Positions 10,258 to 40,621 of a stretch of 40,718 nucleotides of DNA are shown here, in pieces. The DNA comes from a virus: IMG/VR virus record IMGVR_UViG_3300006163_000010, positions 1 through 40,718 of that record; one strand, given 5' to 3'. Made by a program: the position numbers and the translations under genes. A model generated the notes under the pieces. It did no database searches. It had not been told where the DNA came from and worked only from the letters and a program-made list of their open reading frames with translations. Numbering within the stretch: position 1 is the first letter of the stretch; every line of letters starts with the position of its first letter.

Positions 10258-10785
10258 ATGAAAAAATTATTACTTATTATATTTTTATCGCCTATATACT
10301 TATTTGCGCAAGAAAAAGGGCCATATAATCACTTGAAGTTAGAGAACAATCAGGTTGTGTTTCAAGAGGTATATCAATATGACAGCTTATCAGCCCAAAA
10401 GATTAAACAAGCATTAGCTGCGTATGTTCCGACAATAAAAGGCCTTAAGGATTATCAATTAGAAGGAGATGTAATAACTGGTGTTGTTGCGGGATACATT
10501 GACTACAAAAAATATGGCGGTAAGTGGGGAAGCACCGCTACATTTATGAACCATCCTTTTACAGCCAACGTTAATTTTATCTGGAAAGATGGCCGCTATC
10601 GTGCTACCGCGACTAATATAGTCTTCCATACAGCTGGATTTGGTGATATGGACGCCACAATGATATTTGCAAAGGGTAAGAAGGTTAAAGTTTGGGATGA
10701 TAGGCAAATCATCATAAAGGCCGGGGAGTATATTGAACAGTATTTAAATGAACTATTCACGGTAAAACAATCAAATAATTGGTAA
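10258..10785 (+). CDS. Secreted DUF4468-like protein
   Basis: The 175-residue protein has a signal peptide (MKKLLLIIFLSPIYLFAQ) and a mature domain with VFQEVYQYDSLSAQKIKQAL at its start, then GDVITGVVAGYIDYKKYGG and NVNFIWKDGRYRATATNIVF. This order fits the DUF4468 TBP-like-fold family found mainly in secreted Bacteroidota proteins. Its function is unknown. It starts 16 bases after the beta-barrel gene and ends 4 bases before an HTH gene, so the three probably form one message. These two secreted proteins are unlikely to be virion parts and look like lysogenic-conversion genes. Confidence 0.65.
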   Translation: MKKLLLIIFLSPIYLFAQEKGPYNHLKLENNQVVFQEVYQYDSLSAQKIKQALAAYVPTIKGLKDYQLEGDVITGVVAGYIDYKKYGGKWGSTATFMNHPFTANVNFIWKDGRYRATATNIVFHTAGFGDMDATMIFAKGKKVKVWDDRQIIIKAGEYIEQYLNELFTVKQSNNW

Positions 10786-15214: not shown

Positions 15215-16183
15215 ATGTTGAATAAGGTTGTACCAATATTAAGGCATGGGCCATCTTGCGATTACCATCGCACAATATTGCCTTTCAAATATTTGGGATT
15301 CGACATACAGCCTAAACCTATCAACTATGCAGCTGCCGAGTTAATAGTATTCAACCGGTTAGCCCATGAACCTCCAGAGCGGTTCTTCGCACAACAGAAA
15401 CTACATGGGTTCAAATACATTGTTGATATAGATGATTACTGGCACCTTTACCCACACCACCATATCTACGCTAATTGGCAGAAGGCAAAGTTTACCGAGA
15501 AGATAATGGCTTTCATTAAGGGGGCTAACGCGGTTACTACAACCAATTCAGCATTAGCGGCTAAAGTTGCGCAACTAAACAAAAACGTTGTGATCATCCC
15601 AAATGCATTGCCATTTGATCATGGACAGTTTGATAGCACAAACAATACCGATGATCAAATCAGGTTTGTATATGCCGGCGGCAGTTCCCACTATCACGAC
15701 TTCGCGCTGGTTGCTGGTGCGATCAAGGGTACAACACGGGTAAACTTCACATTGGCAGGGATAGAGAACAATCCTGCCTGGTTACAGATGCAGGCGCTTC
15801 TTCGTAATGTCAGTTACGGTAAACGAGCATGCCAACCATTGGATAGTTACATGTCCGTATACAGTAATGCTAATGTGTCATTGGCTCCATTGGAAGCAAA
15901 TGAGTTCAATTGTCTGAAAAGCAATCTTAAGATGTTGGAGGCAGGATGTAAGAACCTTGCATTTATTGCCAGCAAAACAGCACCATATTTCAATGAGCTG
16001 GATAAGCGATATGTAATGTATGCTGAAACAGAAAGTGAATGGAAGGCGTTGATGGCTGAATGTATAAAAGATCCGGCGATAGTAAAAGAGGCTGGATTGC
16101 AACTAGGGGAGCATGTGCGACAACATTATGATTTGCGGAAAGTAAACGAAATAAGAAGGCAGCTGTATGAAAGTATGCTATAG
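15215..16183 (+). CDS. Glycosyltransferase, GT-B fold (GT4-like)
   Basis: The 322-residue protein looks like a GT-B glycosyltransferase. A short N-terminal domain (VPILRHGPSCDYHRTILPFK) carries KYIVDIDDYWHL. The centre has GANAVTTTNSALAAKV, NVVIIPNALPFD, then RFVYAGGSSHYHDFALVAGA. The C-terminal sugar-nucleotide region is LDSYMSVYSNANVSLAPLEAN … NLKMLEAGCKNLAFIASKTA, ending with HVRQHYDLRKVNEIR. These are GT4-type landmarks (YAGG … DxxP … KxLE). It starts the accessory run, 63 bases after the portal, and overlaps the next gene by 17 bases. Donor and acceptor are unknown. Confidence 0.8.
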   Translation: MLNKVVPILRHGPSCDYHRTILPFKYLGFDIQPKPINYAAAELIVFNRLAHEPPERFFAQQKLHGFKYIVDIDDYWHLYPHHHIYANWQKAKFTEKIMAFIKGANAVTTTNSALAAKVAQLNKNVVIIPNALPFDHGQFDSTNNTDDQIRFVYAGGSSHYHDFALVAGAIKGTTRVNFTLAGIENNPAWLQMQALLRNVSYGKRACQPLDSYMSVYSNANVSLAPLEANEFNCLKSNLKMLEAGCKNLAFIASKTAPYFNELDKRYVMYAETESEWKALMAECIKDPAIVKEAGLQLGEHVRQHYDLRKVNEIRRQLYESML

Positions 16184-16703
16184 CAATCCATATAATCGGG
16201 AGAAGAACATAGGAAAGTCGCTAAACGAGTTTTGCGACATGGTTCCAGGTGATTCATGGATTGTGCTTCAGGATGGAGATATAATGTACCTAACAGACTA
16301 TTGGGGTACTCAGATTGAGGATATTATAGCAAAGAACGCAGACTACGACTTGATTGGGTGTATGACCAATAGACTTAAACACAATCATCAGTTATACTTG
16401 GGTAAGTTCTCTGATGATTCTGATATCCGTAATCACATTGGCGTTGCAGAACAGTTGCATAGTTCCGATTATGATACAGTGGAGCACACCGAAAAGCCAA
16501 TTGCCGGCATGTTTATGTTGTTCCCGAAAATAACATGGACTAAACATCGGTTCAAAGAGAACTCTCCAACGTTTGATACTCATTTCAGCCGGGCAATTCA
16601 AAGAACAGGAGGGAAGGTGGGAATAGCAAAGGGGTTATATGTGTTTCACAAATATCGGATGGGTAAACCTGATCCAAAAACAAATGATAAACATCTAAAA
16701 TAG
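16167..16703 (+). CDS. Short glycosyltransferase-like protein, GT-A fold
   Basis: The 178-residue protein has MKVCYSNPYNREKNIGKSLN, VPGDSWIVLQDGDIMYLTDY and a later GMFMLFPKITWTKHRFKEN … FDTHFSRAIQRTGGKVGIAKGLYVFHKYR. The DGD in a hydrophobic strand is the DXD motif that binds the metal and nucleotide sugar in GT-A enzymes. The His in VFHKYR would match the usual metal-binding His near the end. It is shorter than most GT2 enzymes and lacks a clear N-terminal P/AxYN motif, so activity is not certain. Confidence 0.7.
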   Translation: MKVCYSNPYNREKNIGKSLNEFCDMVPGDSWIVLQDGDIMYLTDYWGTQIEDIIAKNADYDLIGCMTNRLKHNHQLYLGKFSDDSDIRNHIGVAEQLHSSDYDTVEHTEKPIAGMFMLFPKITWTKHRFKENSPTFDTHFSRAIQRTGGKVGIAKGLYVFHKYRMGKPDPKTNDKHLK

Positions 16704-16707
16704 ATAT

Positions 16708-17493
16708 ATGGCTTTGATTGCAATGGCTTGCTATGACACGGTAGAAAATGGACGTACCTGGATGACTAAGGAAACACTGATTTCATTATCTGAAACGGTT
16801 GATTTCAGGAAGCATCGATTGTTTGTAATTGATAACGCCAGTTGCCAGGCAACAAAAGATTTGCTGAAAGAGTTCGCATGGATGCAATTTACGCTGATCG
16901 GTAATGATGTGAATGTAGGGACAGCAAAGGCAATTAACCAGGCATGGAGACACAGAACACCGGGTGAAAACCTGATCAAGATGGATAATGATGTGGTTAT
17001 CCGTGCTGCTGGATGGGTGGAGTTGTTGGAAGAGTTGATTACCAGAATGGGGAAGACTGACATTCCCGCCGGTATTGTAGGGCTGAAACGGAAAGACTGC
17101 ATAGAATCACCTAACCTACCAGAAGAGGATTTCTACCGGAGCGAATTGGTAATGTCACCAGCGCCATTAGGCCATAAGTGGATAGTTGCAGAAAGGGTAA
17201 ACCATGTAATGGGTACCTGCCAAATGTATAACCATCAGTTAATAGATCGCATAGGGGGGTTATACCAGATGGATGGGTTATATGGATTTGATGATACGTT
17301 GGCGGCTATTAGATGCCAGGTTGCCGGCTTCCATAGTTATTTCCTGCCAGAGATTGTCATTGACCACATAGATCCGGGAGGCACCAACTACCAGAAATGG
17401 AAAGAAGGGTATGCTGGGGAGAGGATGAGAAAATTCAACGAACTACGCGAACAATATATTAACGGACAAACATCAATTTTCTATCAATTATGA
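16708..17493 (+). CDS. Glycosyltransferase family 2-like protein
   Basis: The 261-residue protein has the GT2 order: N-terminal ALIAMACYDTVENGRTWMTK, HRLFVIDNASCQATKDLLKE, GNDVNVGTAKAINQAWRHRT, then LIKMDNDVVIRAAGWVELLE with a DND metal motif. The acceptor-side motif is GGLYQMDGLYGFDDTLAAIR, followed by IDHIDPGG. This is a full GT-A catalytic domain without membrane helices, so the enzyme is soluble. It starts 4 bases after the previous transferase and overlaps the methyltransferase as ATGA. Confidence 0.85.
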   Translation: MALIAMACYDTVENGRTWMTKETLISLSETVDFRKHRLFVIDNASCQATKDLLKEFAWMQFTLIGNDVNVGTAKAINQAWRHRTPGENLIKMDNDVVIRAAGWVELLEELITRMGKTDIPAGIVGLKRKDCIESPNLPEEDFYRSELVMSPAPLGHKWIVAERVNHVMGTCQMYNHQLIDRIGGLYQMDGLYGFDDTLAAIRCQVAGFHSYFLPEIVIDHIDPGGTNYQKWKEGYAGERMRKFNELREQYINGQTSIFYQL

Positions 17494-18107
17494 AGCAAGT
17501 AAACACATTGCCTGGGGATAGTTCAGACTATCATCTACTAACCAAAGGAGTAGAGTTAAGTAAGGATGTAGTAGGTATGACCTGCGAGATAGGGCTACGG
17601 TTAGGGGGCGGCACCAAGTACATTGTGGATGCCATATCGGCAAATTGTCCCGGTAAGGTGCATATCGCCATTGATCCATATGGGCACATCGAGTATAACA
17701 ATAAAGAAGGTAGCATCTGCCGGCTGGATTATACTAATGAAATGCGTGATACTTGTTTGGGTAACCTGTATCCATATGTGGCATCAAAGGGAGTTCAATT
17801 CCTATTCTTCAATCTGGAAGATACTGAGTTCTTCAACCGCTATGCAGATGGGGTACCTGTATACAGGTTAGAGAAGACGCTGGAAACAAAGTACTCTTTC
17901 ATTCATTTTGATGGCCCTCATGCAGTTGATCCATTAAAGGAAGAACTGGATTTCTTTATTCCCCGTGCATCTAAAGGCGCTATTTTCGCATTCGATGATA
18001 TCACGGACTACTATGATCATAGTGAGATAGAAGCCATCCTTTTCAATGCAGGCTTTGTTTTGATTGAAAAGACATTTCATAAGGGAATATATCGGTATGA
18101 AAACTAA
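17490..18107 (+). CDS. Class I SAM-dependent methyltransferase-like protein
   Basis: The 205-residue protein has motif I as MTCEIGLRLGGGTKYIVDAI, a post-I acidic strand HIAIDPYGHIEYN, motif II-like YSFIHFDGPHAVDPLKEELD and GAIFAFDDITDYYD. These match the Methyltransf_24-type Rossmann methyltransferases often found in sugar and glycopeptide clusters. SAM is the expected donor. Its ATG overlaps the GT2 stop, and its last 11 bases overlap the next glycosyltransferase, so it is part of one coupled pathway. Confidence 0.75.
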   Translation: MKQVNTLPGDSSDYHLLTKGVELSKDVVGMTCEIGLRLGGGTKYIVDAISANCPGKVHIAIDPYGHIEYNNKEGSICRLDYTNEMRDTCLGNLYPYVASKGVQFLFFNLEDTEFFNRYADGVPVYRLEKTLETKYSFIHFDGPHAVDPLKEELDFFIPRASKGAIFAFDDITDYYDHSEIEAILFNAGFVLIEKTFHKGIYRYEN

Positions 18108-18756
18108 GATTGTTACAGTAGCGACACGACCAGACCCGGGGCTTACTATGCTTATTGAAAGTATGGAAAAGTTTGGGCTGGATTATGTCGTGTTGGGACA
18201 GGATCAGCAATGGAAAGGTTTTGGGACTAAAATAATATTGCTGGAGAAATACCTAAAGAGTATTGACCCGGAATATACCCATGTCGTTTTTGTTGATGCT
18301 TATGATGTGGCACTCCTGTCAGGTATGGATGAAATAGAAAAACAGTACACTGATAGCTGGCCCGGTAAAATAGTGTTCAGTGCTGAGTTGAACTGTTGGC
18401 CCTGTGCAGAGTTATCTGAGCGGTATCCAGCCTGTGACAGCTTGTGGCGGTATCTCAATTCGGGTAGCTACATGGCTCCAATCAGTGGGTTATTAAGCCT
18501 GTTCAGTGCATATCCTCCGGTGTTTGAAATGGATGATCAACTGTACTTCACAAAGATGCTACTTGGCGGGGAATCTCCTATAGTGTTGGACACTAATTGC
18601 AGCCTGTTTCAAACCACTGCATTCTGTTACAATAACGAATATAGGGCAGATGGTGCACGCCTGGTAAATAACTTGACAGGTACCATGCCGGTTGTAATAC
18701 ATGGAAACGGCAGAACCCCAATGGATTCCATATACGAATTATTAAAACATAACTAA
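18097..18756 (+). CDS. Glycosyltransferase, PLOD/procollagen galactosyltransferase-like
   Basis: The ATG at 18097 (MKTKIVTVATRPDPGLTMLI) gives 219 residues. Landmarks are KIILLEKYLKSIDPEYTHVVFVDAYDVALLSGMDE, with a D-A-Y-D metal motif, then KIVFSAELNCWPC and LWRYLNSGSYMAPISGLLSL. DDQLYFTKML … VLDTNCSLFQTT and VVIHGNGR end it. This is the arrangement of the PLOD-type glycosyltransferase domain (lysyl-hydroxylase-linked sugar transfer and bacterial or viral relatives). Related enzymes transfer sugars to proteins or sugars. This raises the chance that the pathway acts on a protein. Confidence 0.75.
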   Translation: MKTKIVTVATRPDPGLTMLIESMEKFGLDYVVLGQDQQWKGFGTKIILLEKYLKSIDPEYTHVVFVDAYDVALLSGMDEIEKQYTDSWPGKIVFSAELNCWPCAELSERYPACDSLWRYLNSGSYMAPISGLLSLFSAYPPVFEMDDQLYFTKMLLGGESPIVLDTNCSLFQTTAFCYNNEYRADGARLVNNLTGTMPVVIHGNGRTPMDSIYELLKHN

Positions 18757-19463
18757 TGTCATTAACAGACGTACAGAAAAGCTGGAAGAATTCACCCGCT
18801 CACCATAAAATGGTGAATGAGTCATTTGCATCTTCAGTTAATGCAGATCCAAGCCTAAAGGCACATAGAGATTTTGTTGAGCAGAATGTTTTTGGATTCG
18901 GGGAACGGTCTTTCCAGTGGTTACATAAGCTAATCGTTGACGATATGCCGGATAACTTCGCTTTCATGGAAATAGGCGTATTCAAAGGGCAAATCCTTTC
19001 ACTGTATAAGATGTTGGCAGACGTAACCGGGAAAAGTGTAACACGGTATGGAGTGACCCCGCTGTCAACTGCAGGTGGCGTGTGGGAGTCTGACTATAAG
19101 AGGGATATTGAGTTCATTCATGACACGTTCATGCTGGATAAAGATTATCAGCTGCTGGTAGGTTTAAGTACTGATCCAGCGATCATACAGGAGGCTCAAT
19201 CACTCTCTGTAGATGTCCTATATATTGATGGGGGACATGATCATGCAACGGTGGTCAGCGACATTGTGAATTATATTCCTATCATTAAACCTGGCGGATA
19301 CCTGATAATTGACGATTGCGCAAATGATATGAGCATGCCATGGGGCTATTTCACCGGGATTCAGGAAGTAACTGACGCTACCGGTAGTATAATGAATACC
19401 CATCCAGATTATGAGTTCCTGTTCAATGTAGTGCACAATAAGGTTTGGAGGAAAATAAGATAA
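18756..19463 (+). CDS. Class I SAM-dependent methyltransferase (Methyltransf_24-like)
   Basis: The 235-residue protein has motif I FAFMEIGVFKGQILSLYKML, then VTRYGVTPLSTAGGVWESD, a central VDVLYIDGGHDHATVVSDIVNYIPIIKPGGYLIIDDCAN and the NTHPDYEFLFNVVHNKVW end. This is a complete methyltransferase fold with the DGGH motif common in Methyltransf_24 enzymes. Its ATG shares the final base of the upstream glycosyltransferase stop. It is the second methyltransferase in the cassette. The likely target is a sugar hydroxyl, but no acceptor can be read from sequence. Confidence 0.8.
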   Translation: MSLTDVQKSWKNSPAHHKMVNESFASSVNADPSLKAHRDFVEQNVFGFGERSFQWLHKLIVDDMPDNFAFMEIGVFKGQILSLYKMLADVTGKSVTRYGVTPLSTAGGVWESDYKRDIEFIHDTFMLDKDYQLLVGLSTDPAIIQEAQSLSVDVLYIDGGHDHATVVSDIVNYIPIIKPGGYLIIDDCANDMSMPWGYFTGIQEVTDATGSIMNTHPDYEFLFNVVHNKVWRKIR

Positions 19464-28674: not shown

Positions 28675-31278
28675 ATGGCTAGTAATGAAGGATTAAATCT
28701 TGCTATAGGGGCAAATTTAAGCGGCTTAACAACTGGCTTAGATAGGGCTGTGAATAGTCTAAATCAAACTTCAAATACTATAGAGTCAATAGCTGCTAAT
28801 TTAGTCGCAGCCTTTAATTCCTTACAACCAGCTGTAAACAATACTGTTTCAATTGTTAATAACCTTTCTCCTGTTACCGCTGCCGCTGCTGCGGGGATAA
28901 CAAATTTATCAGCCGCAATTACTTCAGGGCAAGCATCTTTCACTGGATTAGGTGTAGCAAGCACCCAAGCGTCTACCGGAATAAATACTATAGCCGCATC
29001 AGCTACAAATGCGGCTAATTCAATTAACAACTTATCGCCCTCTTCAGGAGCAAGTGCAGCAGGAATAACTAACCTTGCAAATGCTATTCAGTCCGGACAG
29101 GCTTCATTTACCGGATTGGGCACAGCCACCACACAGGCATCTGCAGGGTTAAATAATGTTACAGCATCAGCAACTAATACTAGATCTTCAATTAATAGAC
29201 TATCCCCTGTATCAGGGGCAGCAGCTGCTGGCATAACAAACTTATCCAGATCCGTAACCGCTGGTCAGGTTTCATTGAATGGAGCAACCTTAAATGCGAA
29301 TAGGTTGGCTCCAGCATTAAATAATATAAATAGACCATCTAACACTGCAGCCAATAGTTTACAAAACTTAGGACGAATTGCATCCGATTCGCCATTTGGA
29401 TTTATAGCGATTCAAAATAATTTAGATCCATTATTTGAATCTTTCAGGAGGCTTCAGGCTGAGACAGGAAGCACTGGAGGTGCATTAAAAGCGTTGGGTA
29501 AATCTTTAATGGGGGCAGGAGGTATCGCATTGGCATTCACTGTAGTATCAGCGTTAATAACTGCGGCCATACAGAAATATGGGTCATTAGGAAATGCTTA
29601 TGATGCCCTGATGGGTAAATTAAGTGCCGCCAAACAATTACAAGACGAATATAACAAAGCTATATCTTCCACAGTAGGTGCCGTGGCTGGTGAAATGTCC
29701 AAATTGGAAGGGTGGCTTGCAGTAGCAAGGGATGAAAATATTTCACGCGAACAGCGGTTAAGAGCTGTTAAATTAATACAAAAAGAATATCCAGATTATC
29801 TTAAAAATATCTCGTTAGAGAATATAAACAGTAAACAAACCGCTGAATCTATTGACTTGATGACAGCGGCACTGATAAGACAGGCCCGGGTTAAAGGAGC
29901 GCAAGATCTTATATCGAAAGAACAAGCAAAAATATTTACAGCACAAAATAAGCCATTAAAAGAACAGGCTTCCTTACTCGCTACCGCGCAAGGTGCCTTA
30001 GTTCAGTTTTTTGATATAAGCGGCACGTCGGGTCAAGTGCTGGCAAATGCTTTGCAAGCTGGATCGGGCTGGAAAGCTCAAAGCAAAGTTGTCAATGATG
30101 CTGATAGTAATATTAAAAGGTTACAAAATACAATTAATGAACTACTTAAAACCGATGCAGTTGCAGGAACGCTTGGTATCGGAGAGCATTTAGATGAAAC
30201 AGCAAAATCTGGTAAAACTGTAGCTGACATCCTTAAAGAATTAGGACTTGAGTTATCTGCAATAGATGCTCAGGCATCACTTACCGGGGCAACATTTGAT
30301 TCAATTGCGAACAATAAAATCACCGCCCTGCAAAAAGCATTTGAAGATCTTGTGAAACTGGGATTGAAACCAACATCTCCAGAGATACAAAAGATTGCTA
30401 CACAGATTAATTCATTATCAGATAAAATAATAGGTAAGTCAGAACTTAAAGGTATTCAGTTATTCCAATTTGATGGTAAATCAATTGTCACTGCTGAAGC
30501 TCAGCTTATACACTTAAGAAGTGAAATTCAAAGACTAACGGATACTGGATTTGATCCAGCATCCGAATCTGTTGCAAATCTTCAGAGTAAATATGACATT
30601 CTTTCGGCTGCAATAGGGAATAAACCACTATTTGATGTAGATAACTTTGTAGAGGTTGATAGCAAACTTAAATCATTGTCCTCTGGATTGATTAATGTAT
30701 CGAAGGCACAAGGCATTTTCAATGCGAAAATAGAAGAAGGGATTACAAGATCAGCAATATTAAAACTAAGATTAACTGACCTAGTTAATTATTTAAATAG
30801 CTCTTTACAACAGGCCGCTTTAGATGCAGGAGTTGCCCTTACTGAGGGTATAGTCAATGCTGCTTCCGGGAAGGGGATACAATCTGCAATGGCAGGATTT
30901 GCTAATATTTTCGGTGGATATCTTACAAATCTGGGTAAACAACTGATTATATATAGTGGAATATTGGATGCAATTAAGGTTTCAATACAATCATTAAACC
31001 CGGGGGTTGCTGTTGCGGCTGGCATTGCCGCAATTGCAGCGGGGCAAGCATTAAAGAATTATGCATCTAAAGTTCCCTCTTTTGCAACCGGTGGACTCGT
31101 GACAGAGCCAACTCTCGCAATGGTAGGAGATAACCCTGGCAAGAAAGAGGCGATTATCCCGTCAGAGTTGTGGGATAAGATAGGAGGTGGAGGAACTGGA
31201 TTCATCGCAGAAACACGGGTTGGATTGACTGAATTAATTATTGGACTTCGTAGAGCAGAAAGGGAGGGTAGGAGATAA
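28675..31278 (+). CDS. Tape measure protein
   Basis: The 867-residue protein lies after the chaperone pair. It has low-complexity Ala/Ser/Thr/Asn N-terminal repeats (three 56-residue units from residue 63) and a hydrophobic segment (KSLMGAGGIALAFTVVSALI, about residues 278-297). Long helices follow, then a C-terminal ATGGLVTEPTLAMVGDNPGKKEAIIPSELW segment common at the end of tape measures. Its length would set a tail of roughly 130 nm by the usual 1.5 Å per residue rule. Overlaps the next gene by one base. Confidence 0.88.
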   Translation: MASNEGLNLAIGANLSGLTTGLDRAVNSLNQTSNTIESIAANLVAAFNSLQPAVNNTVSIVNNLSPVTAAAAAGITNLSAAITSGQASFTGLGVASTQASTGINTIAASATNAANSINNLSPSSGASAAGITNLANAIQSGQASFTGLGTATTQASAGLNNVTASATNTRSSINRLSPVSGAAAAGITNLSRSVTAGQVSLNGATLNANRLAPALNNINRPSNTAANSLQNLGRIASDSPFGFIAIQNNLDPLFESFRRLQAETGSTGGALKALGKSLMGAGGIALAFTVVSALITAAIQKYGSLGNAYDALMGKLSAAKQLQDEYNKAISSTVGAVAGEMSKLEGWLAVARDENISREQRLRAVKLIQKEYPDYLKNISLENINSKQTAESIDLMTAALIRQARVKGAQDLISKEQAKIFTAQNKPLKEQASLLATAQGALVQFFDISGTSGQVLANALQAGSGWKAQSKVVNDADSNIKRLQNTINELLKTDAVAGTLGIGEHLDETAKSGKTVADILKELGLELSAIDAQASLTGATFDSIANNKITALQKAFEDLVKLGLKPTSPEIQKIATQINSLSDKIIGKSELKGIQLFQFDGKSIVTAEAQLIHLRSEIQRLTDTGFDPASESVANLQSKYDILSAAIGNKPLFDVDNFVEVDSKLKSLSSGLINVSKAQGIFNAKIEEGITRSAILKLRLTDLVNYLNSSLQQAALDAGVALTEGIVNAASGKGIQSAMAGFANIFGGYLTNLGKQLIIYSGILDAIKVSIQSLNPGVAVAAGIAAIAAGQALKNYASKVPSFATGGLVTEPTLAMVGDNPGKKEAIIPSELWDKIGGGGTGFIAETRVGLTELIIGLRRAEREGRR
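28861..29300 (+). repeat. Three 168-bp in-frame repeats in the tape measure gene
   Basis: Units begin exactly at 28861, 29029 and 29197 (period 168 bases, 56 residues). The last is partial. Each starts with NLSP or RLSP and then has a GITNL core and a GQASFTGLG or GQVSLNG segment. Amino acids are conserved better than codons, so the copies are old. In-frame units of this kind could change tail length by steps. Confidence 0.85.
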
Positions 31279-33215
31279 TGGCTACATACGGGACAATATA
31301 TAGAATGCAGTTCAGGGATAAGAAAGACCTCTTATGGAGGGTTGATTTTCGACTTAAAAATGCTGGCGATACTGACACTCCACTCGTGTTGCAATATGGC
31401 GGTGGAGAGCCGGTAGTGATTAACTGGAATAATTCTGATGAAGACCAATTCGCAACTATAATTGGAAGTAAAGCAAGCATAACCTATTACAAGAGTAATG
31501 ATACAGACCCCTCTCCTGAAACGTTTATTAATATTGAAGAGGATGAATGGTTGATAGATATAAGCAAACTGTCAGATAATACAACTCCTGTTTTGTTTTG
31601 GCGCGGTTTTATTAAGCCAGATAGTAATCAATATCCATGGTTGCCTATGCCATATAGCTTTACAATCAATGCTGTTGATTTTACGTTTTCAAAGGGCACA
31701 ACAATTGATCTTAACGATACGAATTTATTCCTATACGACTTTGTAACAGTAGGAGATTTTATTAAGAGGTCGTTATTTAATTCTATAGGATATGAAGACA
31801 GTATTGCTAAAATATTATTTAGCATCAAACCGGATTCTATTGGGTCAGATTTGATAACAGAATCATTATGGGTGCACACTGATGCATTCTATGATTTCAA
31901 GGACGGAGCTAAGTTTGCGTATGATGCATTAGAACAGTTTTTCGAATCGGTTGATTCAAGGGTATTTTACTCTAACGGCTCATATTGGATTCAGAGAGTA
32001 CAAGATATCGGGAGTAGTAATCAATCATTAATAGTAATCACTCCAGAAGATACAGGTGGGATGATTACTATTAATTATGATATCTCTCAGCCATTAGGCA
32101 ATTCTCCTGCTGACACCGTTGTATATCTTAACAAGACACAAATGTTAACGGTTAATGCCGCTATTAAAAAGCAACGCGTTAATTATCCATTACAAGGGAT
32201 TAACCAAATAAGGAACTTTGATTGGAGGTCAAGTACTCAATCACCATTCCTAGATTGGGAAGGAGATATTACCGGATTCTACACGCGTCAGGGGGTAGGT
32301 AATCTGGAAGATCAATTCAGAATACGGATTGGAGACGCTACGGGTAGTACATTCAGAAGTATTTGGTCAAGAATATCTGTGGCAGTGAATCAATTGGTAA
32401 GACTAGAGTTGAAAAACAAAAGCTACTTAACATTGCCTGCAGTAGATGCTGTTACATATGGAGTGTTTACTAAGGCAGTAGTCGTATTGGTAGAATCAGG
32501 AACGATTGATCCATTAAAATGGTTAGGTACTGATGGTAAGTGGAATAATGTCACAGGCGGAAATGTAGGGGAGGACGAATATTATCACATATCATCCAAT
32601 CCGAAAAACAACGCCAATACAGGAACTATTGAAATACTAAGTGAGCCTATCCCTGTTATTTCGGGTATTGCTTCTTATGAGGTTCTTGTTGTAGTTGTTG
32701 ATAGCGGCATCAGTCCAGCGCCTCCTTCCGGTAGTTCATTCTATACAGAATTATACCCGGCCTTTTTGCGTGTTTACAATGATCCATACGTGAAAATACA
32801 AGAGGACATTGTTAACTCAAAGAAATATTCTTTGATCCCAAGTGATAAGGAGAAATTCTTCTTAGATATACAGGATACAGGGTTGTCCAATACAATCTTC
32901 TATGATGATGCAGGAGTAAAGAAAGCTATTCCGTTCAATGATTGGGATGGGAAAACCATTGACGAAACCGTATTGAGAGGAGAGTTGGATCAGCAGAATA
33001 AACCGGGATATAGTTTTGATGGTGATGTATTCAGCAATGAACTTTCATTCCACCATGCTATTACCTTGACGGATTTAGACAACAAGACCATGATGTTACT
33101 TAGAGATAAGTACAGTGTAATGTCTTGTGTCCATTCAATATATGCTACTGAGATAATGCCTATTGGCGCTGGGATTGGAACTTATACAGTCACACCGCTA
33201 ACACAGGACGAGTAA
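31278..33215 (+). CDS. Baseplate/distal tail protein candidate
   Basis: The 645-residue protein is beta-rich (LLWRVDFRLKNAGDTDTPLVLQYGGGEP … FRGFIKPD-like WRGFIKPDSNQYPWLPMPYS). It contains a central AYDALEQFFESVDSRVFYSNGSYWI segment and ends with AITLTDLDNKTMMLLRDKYSVMS. Gene order (tape measure, then this) matches the place of the distal tail or hub protein in siphoviruses. I do not recognise a lysozyme or glycosidase motif, so only a structural role is proposed. Confidence 0.65.
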   Translation: MATYGTIYRMQFRDKKDLLWRVDFRLKNAGDTDTPLVLQYGGGEPVVINWNNSDEDQFATIIGSKASITYYKSNDTDPSPETFINIEEDEWLIDISKLSDNTTPVLFWRGFIKPDSNQYPWLPMPYSFTINAVDFTFSKGTTIDLNDTNLFLYDFVTVGDFIKRSLFNSIGYEDSIAKILFSIKPDSIGSDLITESLWVHTDAFYDFKDGAKFAYDALEQFFESVDSRVFYSNGSYWIQRVQDIGSSNQSLIVITPEDTGGMITINYDISQPLGNSPADTVVYLNKTQMLTVNAAIKKQRVNYPLQGINQIRNFDWRSSTQSPFLDWEGDITGFYTRQGVGNLEDQFRIRIGDATGSTFRSIWSRISVAVNQLVRLELKNKSYLTLPAVDAVTYGVFTKAVVVLVESGTIDPLKWLGTDGKWNNVTGGNVGEDEYYHISSNPKNNANTGTIEILSEPIPVISGIASYEVLVVVVDSGISPAPPSGSSFYTELYPAFLRVYNDPYVKIQEDIVNSKKYSLIPSDKEKFFLDIQDTGLSNTIFYDDAGVKKAIPFNDWDGKTIDETVLRGELDQQNKPGYSFDGDVFSNELSFHHAITLTDLDNKTMMLLRDKYSVMSCVHSIYATEIMPIGAGIGTYTVTPLTQDE

Positions 33216-33979
33216 TGTTTATAAGAGGATCAGATTTCAATTTCTATATACTTCGTGATGGTGTGCCGGTGGCCATCTGCCACTCGGTTGATTGTGTGAT
33301 AGAAACAACTACTGAAGAATTGGATACAACTGGACCGACAAACGGCAAGTGGGCATCCTTCATACCAGGTATTAATTCCTATACGATCAGTGCTCCTGGG
33401 ATTTCTGTGTATCAGGATGATATGAATATTGTCGATTTGAGGGAGTACCAGGGCGTAGGTAATGTACTGGAATGGAGGGCCGGTATTGATGCTGATGGAG
33501 GATTGCAATATCGTGGGAGCATGTTCATTACATCGCTATCACAAAGCAGCCCACATACGGATATCCTGCGGTATGAAATGTCGGCACGAGGGACAGGTCC
33601 ACTACAGATCGTTAAGAATCCATTAATCAGAACTGTATATCTATCTGATCTTTTCGGCATCCGGCTGGCAGGTTGCCCTGACCCATATCCAGTATCAGTG
33701 TTGTGGTATGATGGCAGTCTTATAGGGTTGGCTAATAATCCGGATGATGTAATAACTCAATTCAATGGATATGCTGGCAATGAGTATTATGTATTAAGTA
33801 GCCCGGACAACAGTTGCAATTTCACAATGAGTATAGCTTGGGATGCTCCGGACAACCCAGAATGGGTACCTGCAGAACCAGGTGGATTAACAGGATTATG
33901 GACCGGTGAAGGAGATGGCGGTATTAGCCCAACAGAAGATGGAGATGAATTAATAACACCAATAGAAGTAGAACCATGA
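33215..33979 (+). CDS. Hypothetical tail protein
   Basis: The 254-residue protein is beta-rich (SDFNFYILRDGVPVAICHSV … EWRAGIDADGGLQYRGSMFI). The first 150 residues look like a tail-tube or baseplate beta domain (TNGKWASFIPGINSYTISAP; ETTTEELDTTG is a tube-like loop). The C-terminal third is acidic and Pro/Gly-rich. It overlaps neighbours on both sides by 1-4 bases. A baseplate-associated role follows from position only. Confidence 0.6.
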   Translation: MFIRGSDFNFYILRDGVPVAICHSVDCVIETTTEELDTTGPTNGKWASFIPGINSYTISAPGISVYQDDMNIVDLREYQGVGNVLEWRAGIDADGGLQYRGSMFITSLSQSSPHTDILRYEMSARGTGPLQIVKNPLIRTVYLSDLFGIRLAGCPDPYPVSVLWYDGSLIGLANNPDDVITQFNGYAGNEYYVLSSPDNSCNFTMSIAWDAPDNPEWVPAEPGGLTGLWTGEGDGGISPTEDGDELITPIEVEP

Positions 33980-35268
33980 GGCCAGATGTAACAGAAGTAG
34001 ATCTCTATAGTACTCGGGAACTTCCCGATGCTACGCCACTTGTGCCTGATGAGACATGGTATGTTCCATTATGTGATCCTCTAACTGGGATTTCATATAG
34101 AGCAAATCAAGAACTTATAGGTGGAATAATAAGTAATTATGTAGGTGGTGGGATTGTAATCCCAGATCGGGTATATAGGATTGGAATAAGTCTACCTGTC
34201 GGTGCAACTGTAACTGTTGAAGATGGGAAAGGAGTAATAACTGATCCATATCTTGACGGAAAGGTCTATTCCGTGAATAGGCGTGGCACTGAGTTGATGA
34301 TGAAAGGGGTTGAGTGGGATAATCTTTCAGGAGACGAAATAAGACTATTGCAAACTGATGATATATTCAGTGATGACGAGGTGGTTATTGTTCAATTTCA
34401 GCCACAAATAAGTTCTATAATCAGTGCTCCGAACTCTATAGCACGATTCACGAATGGCGTTCAATTAATAAACTCAAACATCACATTAACAGCATCTACT
34501 TATCGTAAGCTTCTTGTATTGGCTGGCGGATATCTGGTTACTCTTGGGGTTGATTACCCTGAGAATGTGATATGTGCATTCACTCAGAATAGTACCGGTA
34601 ACGGGCAGTCAACTATATCGGCTCCTGTAGGACAGACAATCGCCTATAATGGAACGAATGTATCATCTGTATGGATTGGAAAGAATGAGCGCATCAGCTT
34701 CATTCGATTAGATATTACATGGTATGTTGTGTTCGATACTCTTGGCTATGATCGCATAGGACAGATTGTACCTGGAAGACTTGTGGGTGCAAACCAGATT
34801 ATAGCACAGGGGCAAACAGTTCTACGTTCAGAATATCCACGGGTATTGGATTATCTGAATAGGCTTAATACAGCATATCCAGGTGTAGTGCTTAGTGCAG
34901 GAAGTTGGCCTTCTGCTAAAACGTATTGGGGCTTCGGTAATGGGACTACTACAATACAGGTGCCGGATTTACGAGGATATTTCCCTCGCTGGTTAGATCT
35001 TGGTGCTGGTATCGATGCTGATCGAGTATCAAGTTCATTAGAAAACAAGCCAGGAAGTCCTGAAGGCATGAAGGTTGAGTCTCATGCGCATCCAGCGTCT
35101 AATTCAGACGGCACCGCAAAGTTTGTGAAAAGAAAAGGGACTAAAACACCCGGTATAGCAACCAATCCAGTTAACGGATTTGAATACCAGGAACAAAACA
35201 CAGGAACATATGGCGGCAATGAAACGCGACCAATTAACGCAGGTGAATTACCATTAATTTTTGTATGA
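33976..35268 (+). CDS. Tail fibre with phage-collar domain
   Basis: The 430-residue protein has a beta-rich N-terminal part. From about residue 260 it has a phage tail-collar domain: GQIVPGRLVGANQIIAQGQTVLRSEYPRVLDYLNR, then TTIQVPDLRGYFPRWLDLGAGID and the terminal EGMKVESHAHPASNSDGTAK. The collar motif (G..v..a.YP.L … F.lPDlRG.F.R) and the SHxHP end are typical for trimeric fibre tips that bind metal ions. It starts inside the previous gene. No signal peptide, unlike the next two proteins. Confidence 0.8.
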   Translation: MRPDVTEVDLYSTRELPDATPLVPDETWYVPLCDPLTGISYRANQELIGGIISNYVGGGIVIPDRVYRIGISLPVGATVTVEDGKGVITDPYLDGKVYSVNRRGTELMMKGVEWDNLSGDEIRLLQTDDIFSDDEVVIVQFQPQISSIISAPNSIARFTNGVQLINSNITLTASTYRKLLVLAGGYLVTLGVDYPENVICAFTQNSTGNGQSTISAPVGQTIAYNGTNVSSVWIGKNERISFIRLDITWYVVFDTLGYDRIGQIVPGRLVGANQIIAQGQTVLRSEYPRVLDYLNRLNTAYPGVVLSAGSWPSAKTYWGFGNGTTTIQVPDLRGYFPRWLDLGAGIDADRVSSSLENKPGSPEGMKVESHAHPASNSDGTAKFVKRKGTKTPGIATNPVNGFEYQEQNTGTYGGNETRPINAGELPLIFV

Positions 35269-38200
35269 TGAGAAGGATAATAATTATATCGCTGATTTTA
35301 ATATCAGCATTCGCGCATGGCCAGGTTTATGTTAATAATCCGGCTTATGGAACCAACTTTAAAAGGGGGAATTTTATTACTGTTTTGCAAATACCATCAG
35401 ATACAACACTGGATGGGACTACAAATCCGTGTGCACAGATTGCCAAGATTGATAATGTTATCTATACCTATAATTGCGATAGTGTGAAATGGGTCCAAAT
35501 AGTAGTGGCAGATACAGGTATTCAGTTGGCTCTTGATTCAGCCCGTCGCTCCAACGATACACTCTTCTTCCGGATTACTACTGGAGGCGAGTTGGCTATT
35601 AAGATGGATTACTACACAAAGCATGAAAGTGATTCAGTCTTTAATATCACAGCTTCACATGGACTAAATAAAACCGGGAACGATATTCAATTAGGAGGTA
35701 CATTTGGTGATGATGGGGAGGATGTAACTGTATTGGGAAATGAAAATCAATCATTACGTCTTCGAGGCACTTATAATACCGACTACAGCTCTGATGACTA
35801 CACTTCTGAAGCCAGAATATTAGGAAGCGGAATAATACTACAATCCATCAACCGTGTGAATGGAGGCAATACCTCATTAAGCATAGGTAGTACAACTGGA
35901 ATTGTAGCAAGTAGTGTTAAAGGAGGGTCTATTACAAGCACGAACGGTGATGCTACAGCTTCAATTGCTATCCCTGCCAATTCATCTGGTGTTCAAATTA
36001 ATAGTGATATAAGCAGTACAGGCGGTTCAAGTTCGTTAAATATAAGTTCTTCAGGTAATTCACAGTTAACAGCAAACAATTCACTAACAATATCTACTCC
36101 ATTAATGACATTACAGGCCGGAACGGTACTGGACATTGATGGACTTAAAAATAATGTAGGTATTGACAGTACATTATACACTGACGAAAATGGAATAGTC
36201 AAACAAAGAGTTCTGGCAATGTCTGATGTGCCCGGATTGGTAGATACGTTGAACGCGAGAAAAGATAGTACTTTCTGGACAAAAGTATATGGTAGCCTAC
36301 GACCGAAAACCATATCTGATAGCGTAGGCATTGGCAAGAAAGCAACTGTACCATTTGATGTTGCCGGTAAGTCTAATTTTGATGACACCACAAAAATGCA
36401 TTCATTAGTTTTAGGCGGAGCGCAGCCCGCTATCCCCAGTGTATACAGGATGTATGTATACGGGAATAATGCATTCACAGGTACTACTGCCTGGAACGGC
36501 GGAATATACAGCAGCAGGAATAGTATAGCAATATCTAATAGGACAATATCCCCTTGGTCGGCTTTCAATTCATCTGGAACTAATGATATATCTCCGGTGG
36601 CTACAATTGGGTGGTATAGATTTCAGGCATCTGGTTTAGGGAAAGCCCTTTATGGGGACTATTTGGGTAGGCTATTTTTTGGTGCTTATACAGGATCGGC
36701 GTTAAACTCAGGGCTGAAGGTAATGGCTGAAATGCGAGTGCAGACTACACAGCATATTGACACTACCAGATATGGAGCCAAAATTTATTTCATGACCACA
36801 AAAAACGGTTCTGTTCCAGTTGGTCCTACTGATAGTGCTACGCTGAATCCAAGAACAGCGCTGTTACTTGAAAACAATCAAAATGTAGCAGTTGGAGTAA
36901 GTGCGATTAACGACAGTGCATATTTGGGTAGATTTCAGGTAAGGGCCGATAGTGCAAATAGCGTTACACAACCATTGATATATACAGATTCATATCTAAA
37001 GGCTTTTAGATGGGCCATATTAGGCACCGGACAGGAAAAAAACTCCTTTCTTGCAACCACGTCATCAGGAATAGCATTGAACGTATTATATGTTGATCCT
37101 GCGGATAGTCTGGTTAAAAAAGGTATACTTCCTTCTACCGGATCTACTCCGCCTGTTGTTAATCTTATTATTCCCAATGATGTATATGCGGTTGAAGGAG
37201 CAGAGTTCAATGTTTATAATGACAATATTGTGCTGTCGGATTATGGAAAATCTGATTTTCAATATGACTATGTATGTACGAAAGGAATTCAGTATAATAA
37301 TCGTTTCTCTTATACTCCGACACAGGCAGATAGTGGGACCACTACGCTGGCAATTAACGTATTATACAAAGGAGGTGTCATAGCGACAAAGACTGTCAAT
37401 CTGCATTCTACGACCAGACGTGCCGGTACCTCCACGCGCAACGTAATCATGGGCGGTGATTCGCAAGTGAATGCTGGTACTATTACAGACACTGCGAAGG
37501 CAAATTATAGTTCTGATGTGATGGTTATTAACTATAAAGGAACGCAGCCAACACCAGGAGGTAATTTCATGGAGGCTCGTGGAGGATGGCAATGGTCAGA
37601 CTTTACCACTGTAGGAAGAACATTCTACAAGTTCATAGTATCTGGTATTACTATTCCTCCTGCACTGAACGCCGCCTATACAAATAACTCCAGCACATTT
37701 GCAGCAAGGGAAATAAACCTTTCGGGAGGTTCTGGATATATATCTTATGAAAGAACAGTAGGTGTTAATGCCCCATTGTCATCAGGAACTCTTACAAAAA
37801 GTACTGGAGTCGGTGATGCAACAATAACTTATAGTTCTGTCACTACGGTACCGGGTAATCCGCTCTGGAATGGAACATTAAGCAGAATGGATGTTGCAGG
37901 TTATCTAACTACATATAGTATAACAATGACTACGGGCGATTGGTGGACATGGCAATTAGGAACTAATGACGTGTTCAGTTATACCGATACCGCAACATTG
38001 AACACAAAAATAGCAGCTGTTCTGGTAAGTATTGATACGATGATCAATGCTATACAGGCAGGAGCACCCGGAACGAAAATAGCCCTGGTTCTCCCTAATC
38101 CGCCAGCAGATCAAGATGCGGCCGGCTCTAATTATACAGCAGGACAAACTGCATGGAGGTTCGACGATAATATTAAGCGGTATATGAAGGCGGTGCTGGC

Positions 38201-38417
38201 AAAGTACGATAACTCTACTTATCAAGGTAATGGGGTGTATGTGCTTGGGGGTAATACCAACATAGATACCAAGAATAATATGCAATTCAGTGTGCAACGT
38301 GTTAACGCGCGTTCGACTGAAACGTATGTCCGACAGATTAATCTCGTGCATCCAGATGTATCTGGATATTCACAATTCTCAGATAGTTATTACGCATTAT
38401 TCAAATGGTTCAAATAA
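35265..38417 (+). CDS. Signal-peptide-bearing fibre-like protein with C-terminal SGNH/GDSL hydrolase
   Basis: The 1,050-residue protein begins with a signal peptide (MRRIIIISLILISAFAHGQ). The long middle (about 20-640) is Ser/Thr/Asn-rich, low complexity and likely beta-helical or fibrous. A beta domain (about 640-715) precedes a C-terminal SGNH hydrolase: block I MGGDSQVNAG near residue 731, block III LGTNDV near 900, block V LVHPDVSGY near 1029. The usual Asp three residues before the His is Asn here. The protein has about 18 D(S/T)(A/I/L/M/T/V) sequons. Such esterases usually remove acyl groups from surface glycans. It overlaps the fibre gene by four bases. Confidence 0.75.
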   Translation: MMRRIIIISLILISAFAHGQVYVNNPAYGTNFKRGNFITVLQIPSDTTLDGTTNPCAQIAKIDNVIYTYNCDSVKWVQIVVADTGIQLALDSARRSNDTLFFRITTGGELAIKMDYYTKHESDSVFNITASHGLNKTGNDIQLGGTFGDDGEDVTVLGNENQSLRLRGTYNTDYSSDDYTSEARILGSGIILQSINRVNGGNTSLSIGSTTGIVASSVKGGSITSTNGDATASIAIPANSSGVQINSDISSTGGSSSLNISSSGNSQLTANNSLTISTPLMTLQAGTVLDIDGLKNNVGIDSTLYTDENGIVKQRVLAMSDVPGLVDTLNARKDSTFWTKVYGSLRPKTISDSVGIGKKATVPFDVAGKSNFDDTTKMHSLVLGGAQPAIPSVYRMYVYGNNAFTGTTAWNGGIYSSRNSIAISNRTISPWSAFNSSGTNDISPVATIGWYRFQASGLGKALYGDYLGRLFFGAYTGSALNSGLKVMAEMRVQTTQHIDTTRYGAKIYFMTTKNGSVPVGPTDSATLNPRTALLLENNQNVAVGVSAINDSAYLGRFQVRADSANSVTQPLIYTDSYLKAFRWAILGTGQEKNSFLATTSSGIALNVLYVDPADSLVKKGILPSTGSTPPVVNLIIPNDVYAVEGAEFNVYNDNIVLSDYGKSDFQYDYVCTKGIQYNNRFSYTPTQADSGTTTLAINVLYKGGVIATKTVNLHSTTRRAGTSTRNVIMGGDSQVNAGTITDTAKANYSSDVMVINYKGTQPTPGGNFMEARGGWQWSDFTTVGRTFYKFIVSGITIPPALNAAYTNNSSTFAAREINLSGGSGYISYERTVGVNAPLSSGTLTKSTGVGDATITYSSVTTVPGNPLWNGTLSRMDVAGYLTTYSITMTTGDWWTWQLGTNDVFSYTDTATLNTKIAAVLVSIDTMINAIQAGAPGTKIALVLPNPPADQDAAGSNYTAGQTAWRFDDNIKRYMKAVLAKYDNSTYQGNGVYVLGGNTNIDTKNNMQFSVQRVNARSTETYVRQINLVHPDVSGYSQFSDSYYALFKWFK

Positions 38418-39250
38418 TGAAAAACATTTTACTATTAGCCTGCTTCACTATTTCTATTTCAACTCAGGCTCAACAGAAAAACATTAGAATCACTGACTTA
38501 GGTGGTATTATTAGTGCTGTTCCGACGAGGGATAATTATGGCACATTGAATTACTCCAACCAGTCCGCAAATCGTGTAGTTGCATCGCCCAACGGCACTA
38601 CAGGCCCCATGTCCGTTAGGTTACTGGTATCTGGGGATATTCCTGCATTAGATGTTGCAAAGATAACAACCGGAACATTGCCCGTAACAAGAGGTGGAAC
38701 AGGATTGGCGTCATTGGGATCTGCATTGCAGCAATTGCGTGTTAATGCAGGAGCAACTGCATTGGAGTATTTTACTCCATCTGCTACTGTTCAAACATCC
38801 GGCCCAGTGAAAGATTTCTATGCTAATGCAACTGCCGCGGATTCACTATATGCTTATACTGTTCCTTCTTCATTTCTTGCTGTTAATGGCGATAAGGTGT
38901 CGTTTACTTATGCTGGTTTTTTCGCTCCTGCCGGGGCAACAGCCAGGGGGGTCGGAGTTGCTGTTAATGGCACTAATATGGCGTCACTATCAAATGGAGT
39001 TACGTTGGGCGGAAAATGGAAAATACATGGAACAATAATAAGGGTAAGCAATACTGTAATAAGATATGTGGCAGATATTTCATTCGATAATTCTGGCGTG
39101 GGATCTAACCTAACTTTATTGTCAAATGATGAAATAACAGGACAAAATCTTTCTGCAAATGGAGCAAGGATTGCGTTAACTGTAGTATCGCCAAATACAA
39201 ATGTTACAGCTATTCTTGGATCACTTACATATATTTCAGCAGCACCTTAA
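38417..39250 (+). CDS. Secreted tail-fibre-like protein
   Basis: The ATG at 38417 overlaps the previous stop. The 277-residue protein has a signal peptide (MKNILLLACFTISISTQAQ), then GGIISAVPTRDNYGTL, and a phage fibre linker KITTGTLPVTRGGTGLASLG (about residues 82-101). A C-terminal beta-sandwich (FLAVNGDKVSFTYAGFFAPA … WKIHGTIIRVSNTVIRYVAD … TAILGSLTYISAAP) looks like a receptor-binding head. The fibre linker makes a virion link likely, while the signal peptide makes export likely. The two together are unusual. Confidence 0.7.
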   Translation: MKNILLLACFTISISTQAQQKNIRITDLGGIISAVPTRDNYGTLNYSNQSANRVVASPNGTTGPMSVRLLVSGDIPALDVAKITTGTLPVTRGGTGLASLGSALQQLRVNAGATALEYFTPSATVQTSGPVKDFYANATAADSLYAYTVPSSFLAVNGDKVSFTYAGFFAPAGATARGVGVAVNGTNMASLSNGVTLGGKWKIHGTIIRVSNTVIRYVADISFDNSGVGSNLTLLSNDEITGQNLSANGARIALTVVSPNTNVTAILGSLTYISAAP

Positions 39251-39264
39251 TTAAATCTTACACC

Positions 39265-39504
39265 ATGCCTGAAACAAAGTTCGGCCCCGGCCAGATTACA
39301 ACACAGACCCCTATGTGGGCAAAATGGATGTTCCGCATCACGTTCATTCTTACGACAGCTGTCACCGGATGGGTTGCAGCCACAAATATTTTCCCACAGG
39401 AAACAAAATATGAGATCACACTTCTACTGAAGCTACTTATAGATCCCATTGTATATGGAGTTAGTAAGATGTTCGGTGTGCAAGTAAAAGATGATGAGCA
39501 ATGA
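39265..39504 (+). CDS. Holin-like small membrane protein
   Basis: The 79-residue protein has a strong hydrophobic helix (MFRITFILTTAVTGWVAA, about residues 22-39) and a second amphipathic or hydrophobic part (LLLKLLIDPIVYGVSKMFGV, about 54-73). A charged tail ends it (KDDEQ). This profile and position (after the fibres, before a serine hydrolase) suit a holin that opens the inner membrane at lysis. I recall similar proteins in Bacteroidota phages but none is experimentally tested to my knowledge. The next gene overlaps as ATGA. Confidence 0.55.
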   Translation: MPETKFGPGQITTQTPMWAKWMFRITFILTTAVTGWVAATNIFPQETKYEITLLLKLLIDPIVYGVSKMFGVQVKDDEQ

Positions 39505-39785
39505 ACTGGGATAATATTCGATTCACTGCACGGGATATGCTCATGATTATTGTGAATGTTGTGACTGCAACATCATTCATTCTAATAATGAAGGGAGATA
39601 TTCGCACGCTGGTAAACGGGCAGCAACGCATGGAAGCAAAGCAGGATAAGTCAGAAGATGACAATACCTCTTTTCGAGCCAAATGCCAGGTAGAATTAAC
39701 TGAGTTGAAAGTTCGTATCAGTATCGTAGAACAAAAAGTAAACAATATTGAAATAGAACAAAACGCAATCAAATCAATCAAATGA
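39501..39785 (+). CDS. Membrane-anchored coiled-coil protein (spanin or holin partner candidate)
   Basis: The 94-residue protein has one membrane helix (MLMIIVNVVTATSFILIMKG, about residues 13-32) followed by a charged coiled coil (about 40-90, ending VEQKVNNIEIEQNAIKSIK). Small proteins of this form in lysis cassettes can be inner-membrane spanins. Its start overlaps the holin-like stop and its stop overlaps the hydrolase start, so all three are coupled. A lipoprotein partner may be the truncated gene at 40599. Confidence 0.55.
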   Translation: MNWDNIRFTARDMLMIIVNVVTATSFILIMKGDIRTLVNGQQRMEAKQDKSEDDNTSFRAKCQVELTELKVRISIVEQKVNNIEIEQNAIKSIK

Positions 39786-40621
39786 AGAAGTTCTTTTTTT
39801 TATCCCTGTTCCTACCAGTATTTGTTTCGGGACAGATGAAGCAAATTAGCTATGATGCAAACGCCGGTACCGGTATAAGGATTGATCAGGATGGACATAT
39901 TGAAAGTGCAGTAGTATTCTTGCCTGAACGATATGAAACGAAGGATACTTGGCCAACAATACTATATTTTCATGGTGCTGGGGAAAGCTCAAAAGATAGG
40001 GTATATTCAAAGGTATTGGGCAATGGTCTTCCTAAAAACATTGTACAAGGCTTTAAGATACCTTATATCGTAATTTCGGTGCAGGACCAGTGGAGTACAC
40101 CAACACCTGCGGTCATAGATTATGTGTTGAAAAATACATTCCTCAAGGCTTACAACATTGACACTACACGTATTTATACTACAGGGTTGTCATATGGTGG
40201 TGGAGGTGCAGTGGCGATGGCAATAGCGCATCCTGAATATATATCTGCAGTAGTCAGTGCAAGCCCTTCTGCATTACAACCGGGAGAGGTAACCAACCTT
40301 CCGGTATTGGCCAAAAACAATATACCAGTGTGGTTCTGGTACGGGACGAAAGATACCGGGCCATTTGGTGACAATGCAAAAAACTACTCTGCAAAAATCA
40401 CATCAGCCGGCGGAAGTTCCTGGATAACTACGGAGGCGGTAGGACATGGTCCTTGGGAGGCCCTGTATAAGGGCGCTTCTAAATTAAGCGGGAAAACAAT
40501 GTACGATTTCTTCGCTCAATATGGGAAAGTCGCAGTCCTTCCACCTGTCATTGATACACCAATGAAAAAGCTATTGTTCACCCTGAAAGTATACAGTGAT
40601 GGAAGCGTTGAAAAGTTGTAG
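39782..40621 (+). CDS. Secreted alpha/beta serine hydrolase (esterase/lipase-like)
   Basis: The 279-residue protein has a signal peptide (MKKFFFLSLFLPVFVSGQ). It is an alpha/beta hydrolase: LPERYETKDTWPTILYFHGAGES (oxyanion HG at 64-65), IDTTRIYTTGLSYGGGGAVAMA with the G-x-S-x-G nucleophile Ser137, VWFWYGTKDTG (acid, about residue 190) and a VGHGPWEALY His. This looks like the PHB-depolymerase or phospholipase/carboxylesterase group. Its place after two membrane proteins makes it a candidate lysis enzyme that attacks lipids or esters in the envelope, like LysB of actinophages in principle. Confidence 0.7.
   Translation: MKKFFFLSLFLPVFVSGQMKQISYDANAGTGIRIDQDGHIESAVVFLPERYETKDTWPTILYFHGAGESSKDRVYSKVLGNGLPKNIVQGFKIPYIVISVQDQWSTPTPAVIDYVLKNTFLKAYNIDTTRIYTTGLSYGGGGAVAMAIAHPEYISAVVSASPSALQPGEVTNLPVLAKNNIPVWFWYGTKDTGPFGDNAKNYSAKITSAGGSSWITTEAVGHGPWEALYKGASKLSGKTMYDFFAQYGKVAVLPPVIDTPMKKLLFTLKVYSDGSVEKL

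Follow-up and report, generated by a model that had tools for sequence, protein, structure and literature searches.

The 40,718-base IMG/VR virus record IMGVR_UViG_3300006163_000010, here called the window and analysed over its whole length, carries at 35265-38417 of the plus strand a gene for a 1,050-residue tail protein that has a Bacteroidota-type signal peptide and, on its stalk, a marked excess of the Bacteroidota O-glycosylation motif. We think it rather likely that in a split tail fibre this protein, hereafter the fibre, would form the distal portion, which binds the receptor and is esterase-like, and that it would be exported and joined later. The window has genes for terminase, portal and capsid and for tape-measure-like and tail-tube-like proteins (Pfam and PHROG searches). 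The terminase shares 42-53% identity with the terminases of the nearest phages, those of Bacteroides, Flavobacterium, Polaribacter and Cellulophaga; the phage is therefore siphovirus-like, probably temperate, and has a Bacteroidota host.

Signal peptides were called by a script heuristic on leader features. The fibre N-terminus, MMRRIIIISLILISAFAHG followed by QVYVN, has a charged n-region, a hydrophobic h-region, a small residue at -1 and Gln at +1, that is, all the leader features of the Q-rule, in which Gln at +1 marks Bacteroidota Sec/signal peptidase I (SPI) signal peptides (available text of PMC5837995). The start codon of the fibre gene and the stop codon of the tail gene before it share bases (ATGA), so the leader is translationally coupled and no artefact of start annotation. 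At the other end of the protein, residues 624-1050 are 29-31% identical to the baseplate/receptor-binding protein of Lactococcus phage 98202 (E 6e-17) and hold the GDS731, GTND899 and H1029 (HP) blocks of an SGNH hydrolase. We call the head only SGNH-like, because Asn rather than Asp stands three residues before the catalytic His and the match to PF13472 (Lipase_GDSL_2; E 2e-5, 25.6 bits) lies below the cut-off of 32.9; a PDB sequence search gave nothing relevant. The gene stands at the end of the tail operon, ahead of the lysis genes, in the operon slot of a distal tail fibre.

Tail-fibre signal peptides recur in Bacteroidota phages. In Cellulophaga phage phi10:1, related to the window by its terminase, five tail genes in a row have leaders (gp091-gp095; 38183-45214, locus L006). 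Two of the five are annotated as pectate lyases, and GenBank notes assign gp091-gp094 to the virion by tandem mass spectrometry (MS/MS). Virion MS/MS notes and leader N-termini also coincide in phi19:1 (gp101-gp104), phi18:3 (gp085-gp087) and phi39:1 (gp25-gp26). Leader-bearing coding sequences noted in the GenBank annotation as virion proteins by MS/MS number 13 in total, 12 with Gln at +1 and one, phi19:1 gp104, with Lys; the leaders of phi19:1 gp104, phi10:1 gp095 and phi39:1 gp25 were missed by the script and read by eye. These four phages belong to Assiduviridae, Pachyviridae and one unclassified lineage, and the module seems to move between virus families, the phi10:1 module being homologous to Pachyviridae modules. 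Literature searches on signal peptides of phage tail fibres and on Cellulophaga phage proteomics found no paper that appeared to describe such leaders on Bacteroidota virion fibres, with the limit that the text of Holmfeldt 2013 may mention one; in the available part of PMC6199706, absence of a signal peptide serves as the mark of a phage-borne as opposed to a surface-displayed variable protein. An earlier note on this DNA, made from its letters, had seen a clear signal peptide on a tail-region protein of this length, and the leader is indeed of the Bacteroidota Sec type with Gln at +1. Its proposal that the protein is exported gains support from this leader together with the similar ones on fibres that MS/MS notes assign to the virion in other Bacteroidota phages. 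It had further thought an exported virion fibre strange: the paradox is real, but it is shared with other Bacteroidota phages.

To place such leaders in their genetic context we surveyed loci anchored on the Phage_tail_2-like gene (33215-33979 in the window), the product of which was aligned with its phi10:1 and Flavobacterium phage 11b homologues. There were 112 anchor loci (38 in a first set, with the window's own copy, L017, left out, and 74 new ones), 68 of them classifiable and 54 left after deduplication at 90%; loci were dropped when they had no adaptor match, an open-ended adaptor open reading frame (ORF) or too little downstream sequence, and one dropped for the first of these reasons (L055) has leader-bearing fibres. 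In the first set (38 IMG/VR loci), 14 of 39 downstream ORFs of at least 330 residues started with a hydrophobic stretch followed by [AGS]Q, against none of 166 upstream ORFs of at least 150 residues and one of 80 shorter downstream ORFs. A 90-residue adaptor domain (alignment A6) is found either as the N-terminus of a long fibre or as a stand-alone protein, and among the 54 non-redundant loci a Q+1 signal-peptide fibre follows a separate adaptor in 15/15 and a fused one in 0/39, with the class border at 405 residues, chosen after lengths of 402 and 419 had been seen; at a border of 350 residues the counts are 13/13 versus 2/41 (P = 9e-11). Residues 146-529 of the leaderless fused fibre of 11b are 32-34% identical to leader-bearing fibres, and the leaderless phi4:1 gp047 and gp048 are homologous to the leader-bearing phi19:1 gp101 and gp104 and phi39:1 gp25, which argues that the same distal fibre occurs in both forms, with the leader present when the adaptor is not fused. 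Of 19 mature N-termini, among them that of the window fibre, 16 have a [YF]G pair within mature residues 4-20, against a background of 75 in 800 windows; because many of the 19 sequences are related, we treat the mature N-terminus as a candidate docking peptide, a lead rather than proof.

The sequon, D[ST][AILMTV], or D[ST]-phi with phi standing for the last set, occurs 18 times in the fibre against a shuffle mean of 5.3; none of 3,000 shuffles of the whole protein reached 18 (Poisson P = 1e-5). The excess lies in the stalk (residues 20-623), with 15 sequons against 3.28 and none of 5,000 shuffles reaching 15; the head (residues 624-1050) has three against 2.08, no excess. It is also particular to the motif: reversed phi[ST]D (4 versus 5.4 expected) and D[ST] followed by a residue other than phi (6 versus 7.5) are not raised, nor are E[ST]-phi and N[ST]-phi, and D precedes 18 of 99 [ST]-phi pairs versus 6 of 120 [ST] pairs without phi. 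Among the 50 window ORFs scored, no other tail or leader-bearing protein has a comparable excess: the single other ORF at nominal p < 0.01 is one of 130 residues at 9100 with two sites, the product of 38405-39250 has one sequon against 0.98 expected, and both this product and that of 39782 combine a Q+1 signal peptide with no sequon excess. A sequon excess in a leader-bearing protein is one mark of a general O-glycosylation substrate, and the fibre has both.

In 42 stretches of Bacteroidota genomes the observed/expected ratio of the sequon was 1.70 in 83 signal-peptide proteins versus 1.20 in 442 without one (1.44 in 46 ambiguous proteins). After near-duplicates had been dropped, leader-bearing phage fibres gave 0.39 in IMG/VR (15 versus 38.1, n=12) and 0.29 in Cellulophaga phages (10 versus 35.0, n=12), and leaderless fibres 0.66 (33 versus 50.0, n=13) and 0.82 (27 versus 33.1, n=11), respectively. 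The pooled rate ratio of leader-bearing to leaderless fibres was 0.47 (P = 0.0015); the IMG/VR comparison alone was not significant (P = 0.11), and a larger IMG/VR set gave 19 versus 53.2 for leader-bearing (n=17) and 99 versus 154.6 for fused fibres (n=39; P = 0.02). The reversed-motif control in leader-bearing fibres was about 1. Since leaderless fibres are somewhat depleted too, part of the effect is compositional; for the rest, we infer that exported fibres meet O-glycosylation and mostly avoid the sequon. An excess common to equivalent exported fibres was thus not found (0.29-0.39), and the window fibre, at 3.37, stands above all 17 leader-bearing (maximum 1.09) and 39 fused fibres (maximum 1.6): its 18 sites are peculiar to this phage among the exported fibres compared. 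The earlier note's count of about 18 sequons therefore survives the comparison with shuffled sequence that it had proposed, and as a signal the excess stands for this protein; it fails for the class, whose other members are depleted. Lack of an excess in orthologues, which the note itself had named as a ground for refutation, thus holds for the class but not for this protein, and glycosylation as a rule for signal-peptide fibres is not supported.

In the available text of PMC12871550, the O-glycan is transferred in the periplasm at the motif D-S/T-A/L/V/I/M/T, occupancy of motif sites is nearly complete in non-cytoplasmic proteins, and an added motif brings glycosylation. By these rules, stalk glycosylation would be expected in a host of this kind, provided that the fibre is exported there, and the stalk is probably decorated at about 15 sequons.

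In the mechanism that we infer, the fibre would be translated from the tail operon with its Sec/SPI signal peptide, exported and cut before Gln20, its N-terminus probably cyclising to pyroglutamate, while in the cytoplasm the tail would receive a proximal attachment protein that has no signal peptide. Once exported, the distal fibre could join this proximal protein in the periplasm or lysate, perhaps by way of the conserved mature N-terminus. Crossing the inner membrane would bring it to the host O-glycosylation machinery; most exported fibres would have lost the sequon, an evolutionary scar of that passage, and this one would keep about 15 on its stalk, where a glycan is probable. For Bacteroidota tailed phages more widely, we find evenly balanced the proposition that assembly takes place in two compartments, with particle and short adaptor made in the cytoplasm and a Sec-secreted distal fibre that matures like a host envelope protein and is added either in the periplasm or when the cell lyses.

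Several observations weigh against this account. For the window phage itself, export, cleavage and virion content are predictions, and the MS/MS notes in GenBank are silent on leader removal. Tail proteins have no signal peptide in 11b, P12002L, Versailles, BS-TP3, phi18:1, phi38:1, phi4:1, phi17:2 and Fpv5. Of 80 terminase-relative loci kept, 17 were searched further and 16 read downstream, and none of these 16 has a Q+1 signal peptide on an ORF of at least 200 residues, with several of the regions stopping short of the fibre gene; two ORFs in one terminase relative (L152) have other leader-like starts. A single metagenome supplied ten of the 15 split loci; without the leader-bearing loci of metagenome 3300020045 the rule stands at 5/5 versus 0/39 (P = 9e-7). 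The window matches the split pattern by gene order only: 33976-35268 lies where a separate attachment protein is expected and looks like an adaptor by eye, but hhalign gave it no significant match to the A6 family, and we keep it as a candidate adaptor. Finally, the sequon excess of the window fibre runs opposite to the trend of the other leader-bearing fibres.

Other explanations have to be set beside the reading of an exported, late-joining fibre. The protein might be exported without becoming part of the virion, as a late surface or periplasmic esterase or adhesin engaged, for example, in receptor clearing, freeing progeny from debris or excluding other phages; the signal peptide, the esterase-like head and the further leader-bearing hydrolase in the same operon agree with this, but MS/MS annotations list leader-bearing fibres of four Cellulophaga phages among the virion proteins, the homologues are tail fibres of the ordinary fused kind and the head matches a receptor-binding protein, and we consider it unlikely. 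It is improbable that the leader serves no export and stays on the fibre uncleaved, a hydrophobic stretch by which the protein is docked or trimerised in the cytoplasm in place of a fused adaptor: the exact link between split adaptor and signal peptide would be explained with assembly kept in the cytoplasm, yet in 14/14 the hydrophobic core is followed by a small residue and then Gln, as the Bacteroidota SPI rule has it, and the stronger sequon avoidance of leader-bearing fibres would be needless in a cytoplasmic protein. Least credible to us is a captured fragment of a host secreted-protein gene, with signal peptide and sequons as leftovers; the sequon pattern does resemble that of host exported proteins, and against capture stand the same operon slot with its ATGA overlap, the relation of the head to a phage receptor-binding protein and the recurrence of signal-peptide fibres in unrelated phages.

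A serious possibility, if not one that we favour, concerns the sequons rather than export: the excess might be a sequence habit of the stalk, such as turn or capping motifs, to which no glycan is added. The depletion in other exported fibres, by which the excess is no class property, and its confinement to the stalk speak for such a habit. Against it stand the rise of D[ST]-phi and of none of the four related patterns, as in host exported proteins (1.70 versus 1.20), and the near-full motif occupancy in non-cytoplasmic proteins reported in the part of PMC12871550 available.

Among known systems, the phi10:1, phi19:1, phi18:3 and phi39:1 modules share with the window the operon position ahead of lysis genes, the Q+1 Sec leader and an enzymatic or adhesive head, but their heads are of pectate-lyase type and their sequons depleted, whereas the window has an SGNH-type head and an excess; there is no convincing sequence similarity between the window fibre and these Cellulophaga modules. 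Flavobacterium phage 11b gp46 and other fused fibres follow the same Phage_tail_2-like gene and have a distal part homologous to leader-bearing fibres; unlike the window fibre they carry the adaptor at the N-terminus and no signal peptide. The receptor-binding protein of Lactococcus phages 98202-98204 has the beta-domain and SGNH-like head in common with the window (29-31% identity), but it comes from phages of a Gram-positive host, has no signal peptide and shows no stalk similarity. Substrates of Bacteroidota general O-glycosylation share the D[ST][ALVIMT] excess and the signal peptide; the window protein differs from them in being a phage tail fibre, a class whose other exported members avoid the motif.

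The same phage is present in IMG/VR as IMGVR_UViG_3300025905_000004 (52,944 bp; fibre region 100% identical), the extra sequence of which encodes, as we read its ORFs by eye, a lipoprotein whose C-terminus has a membrane segment, together with a lysozyme-like protein and the product of an integrase-like gene. As window-like relatives, tblastn and pattern scans of IMG/VR with the fibre, the 645-residue tail protein (31278-33215) and the esterase as queries returned only this same phage, and searches of genome contigs yielded no relative of the fibre and one of the anchor. In 395 Bacteroidota genomes the anchor profile matched two, the fibre three (short matches) and the adaptor profile one, too few prophages for a survey. 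Two candidates were rejected: the match in G293 lies in a frame that holds a stop, with no fibre gene, and that in G040 in an ordinary chromosomal secreted-protein region.

Features of the window from the distal tail to the lysis region, and the sugar-modification cassette
Feature	Position	Strand	Evidence
Phage_tail_2-like distal tail protein (survey anchor)	33215..33979	+	PF06199 E 2.4e-6; phrog_1407 E 3.9e-18
Collar/attachment fibre protein, no signal peptide	33976..35268	+	Collar domain E 2.1e-4 (below cut-off); phrog_1858 tail fiber E 4e-13
Signal peptide of the fibre, residues 1-19, cleavage expected before Gln20	35265..35321	+	Script heuristic; ATGA overlap; Q-rule (PMC5837995, available text)
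Mature N-terminus (QVYVNNPAYGTN...) and stalk, residues 20-623, 15 of 18 sequons	35322..37133	+	Shuffle test; [YF]G motif
Beta-domain and SGNH-like head, residues 624-1050, 3 sequons	37134..38414	+	Lactococcus phage 98202 match; phrog_26878 E 1.8e-21
Second fibre-like protein, predicted signal peptide MKNILLLACFTISISTQA followed by QQKN	38405..39250	+	ORF list; script call
Small membrane protein	39265..39504	+	Hydrophobic segment
Alpha/beta-hydrolase (esterase-like), predicted signal peptide MKKFFFLSLFLPVFVSG followed by QMKQ	39782..40621	+	Abhydrolase_1 E 4.3e-5 (below cut-off); phrog_789 esterase/lipase E 6e-4
Glycosyltransferase and sugar-methyltransferase-like cassette	15215..19463	+	GT2 PF00535 7e-7; GT_PLOD PF25342 3e-43; Methyltransf_24 twice

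The Collar/attachment protein is the presumed cytoplasmic partner of the exported fibre, and the real start of the second fibre-like gene is probably at 38417. The small membrane protein, which gave no significant family match in Pfam or PHROG, is presumably holin-like, by position and hydrophobic segment; the alpha/beta-hydrolase sits in the lysis region and could be another exported surface enzyme. The cassette (GT2, GT_PLOD, Methyltransf_24/CmcI-like) lies in the structural operon, between portal and head morphogenesis genes, and may modify the virion, DNA or host glycans. The suggestion that the phage's own transferases glycosylate the fibre stands in so far as such genes are present; the cassette is a possible modifier, with no link to the fibre seen. 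Elsewhere in the window, near the early region, the adjacent genes 9624-10241 and 10258-10785 each encode a small protein with a Q+1 signal peptide, the second of which matches phrog_4002 (function unknown). In the record of Bacteroides phage BS-TP3 (locus L008, 5-1264), GenBank annotates a RagB/SusD-like protein bordering the head genes.

The accepted view is that tailed phages assemble entirely in the cytoplasm. If distal fibres are secreted, the proteins that set host range in a major phage group would mature in another compartment; such fibres could carry host glycans, and a new virion completion step would be needed.

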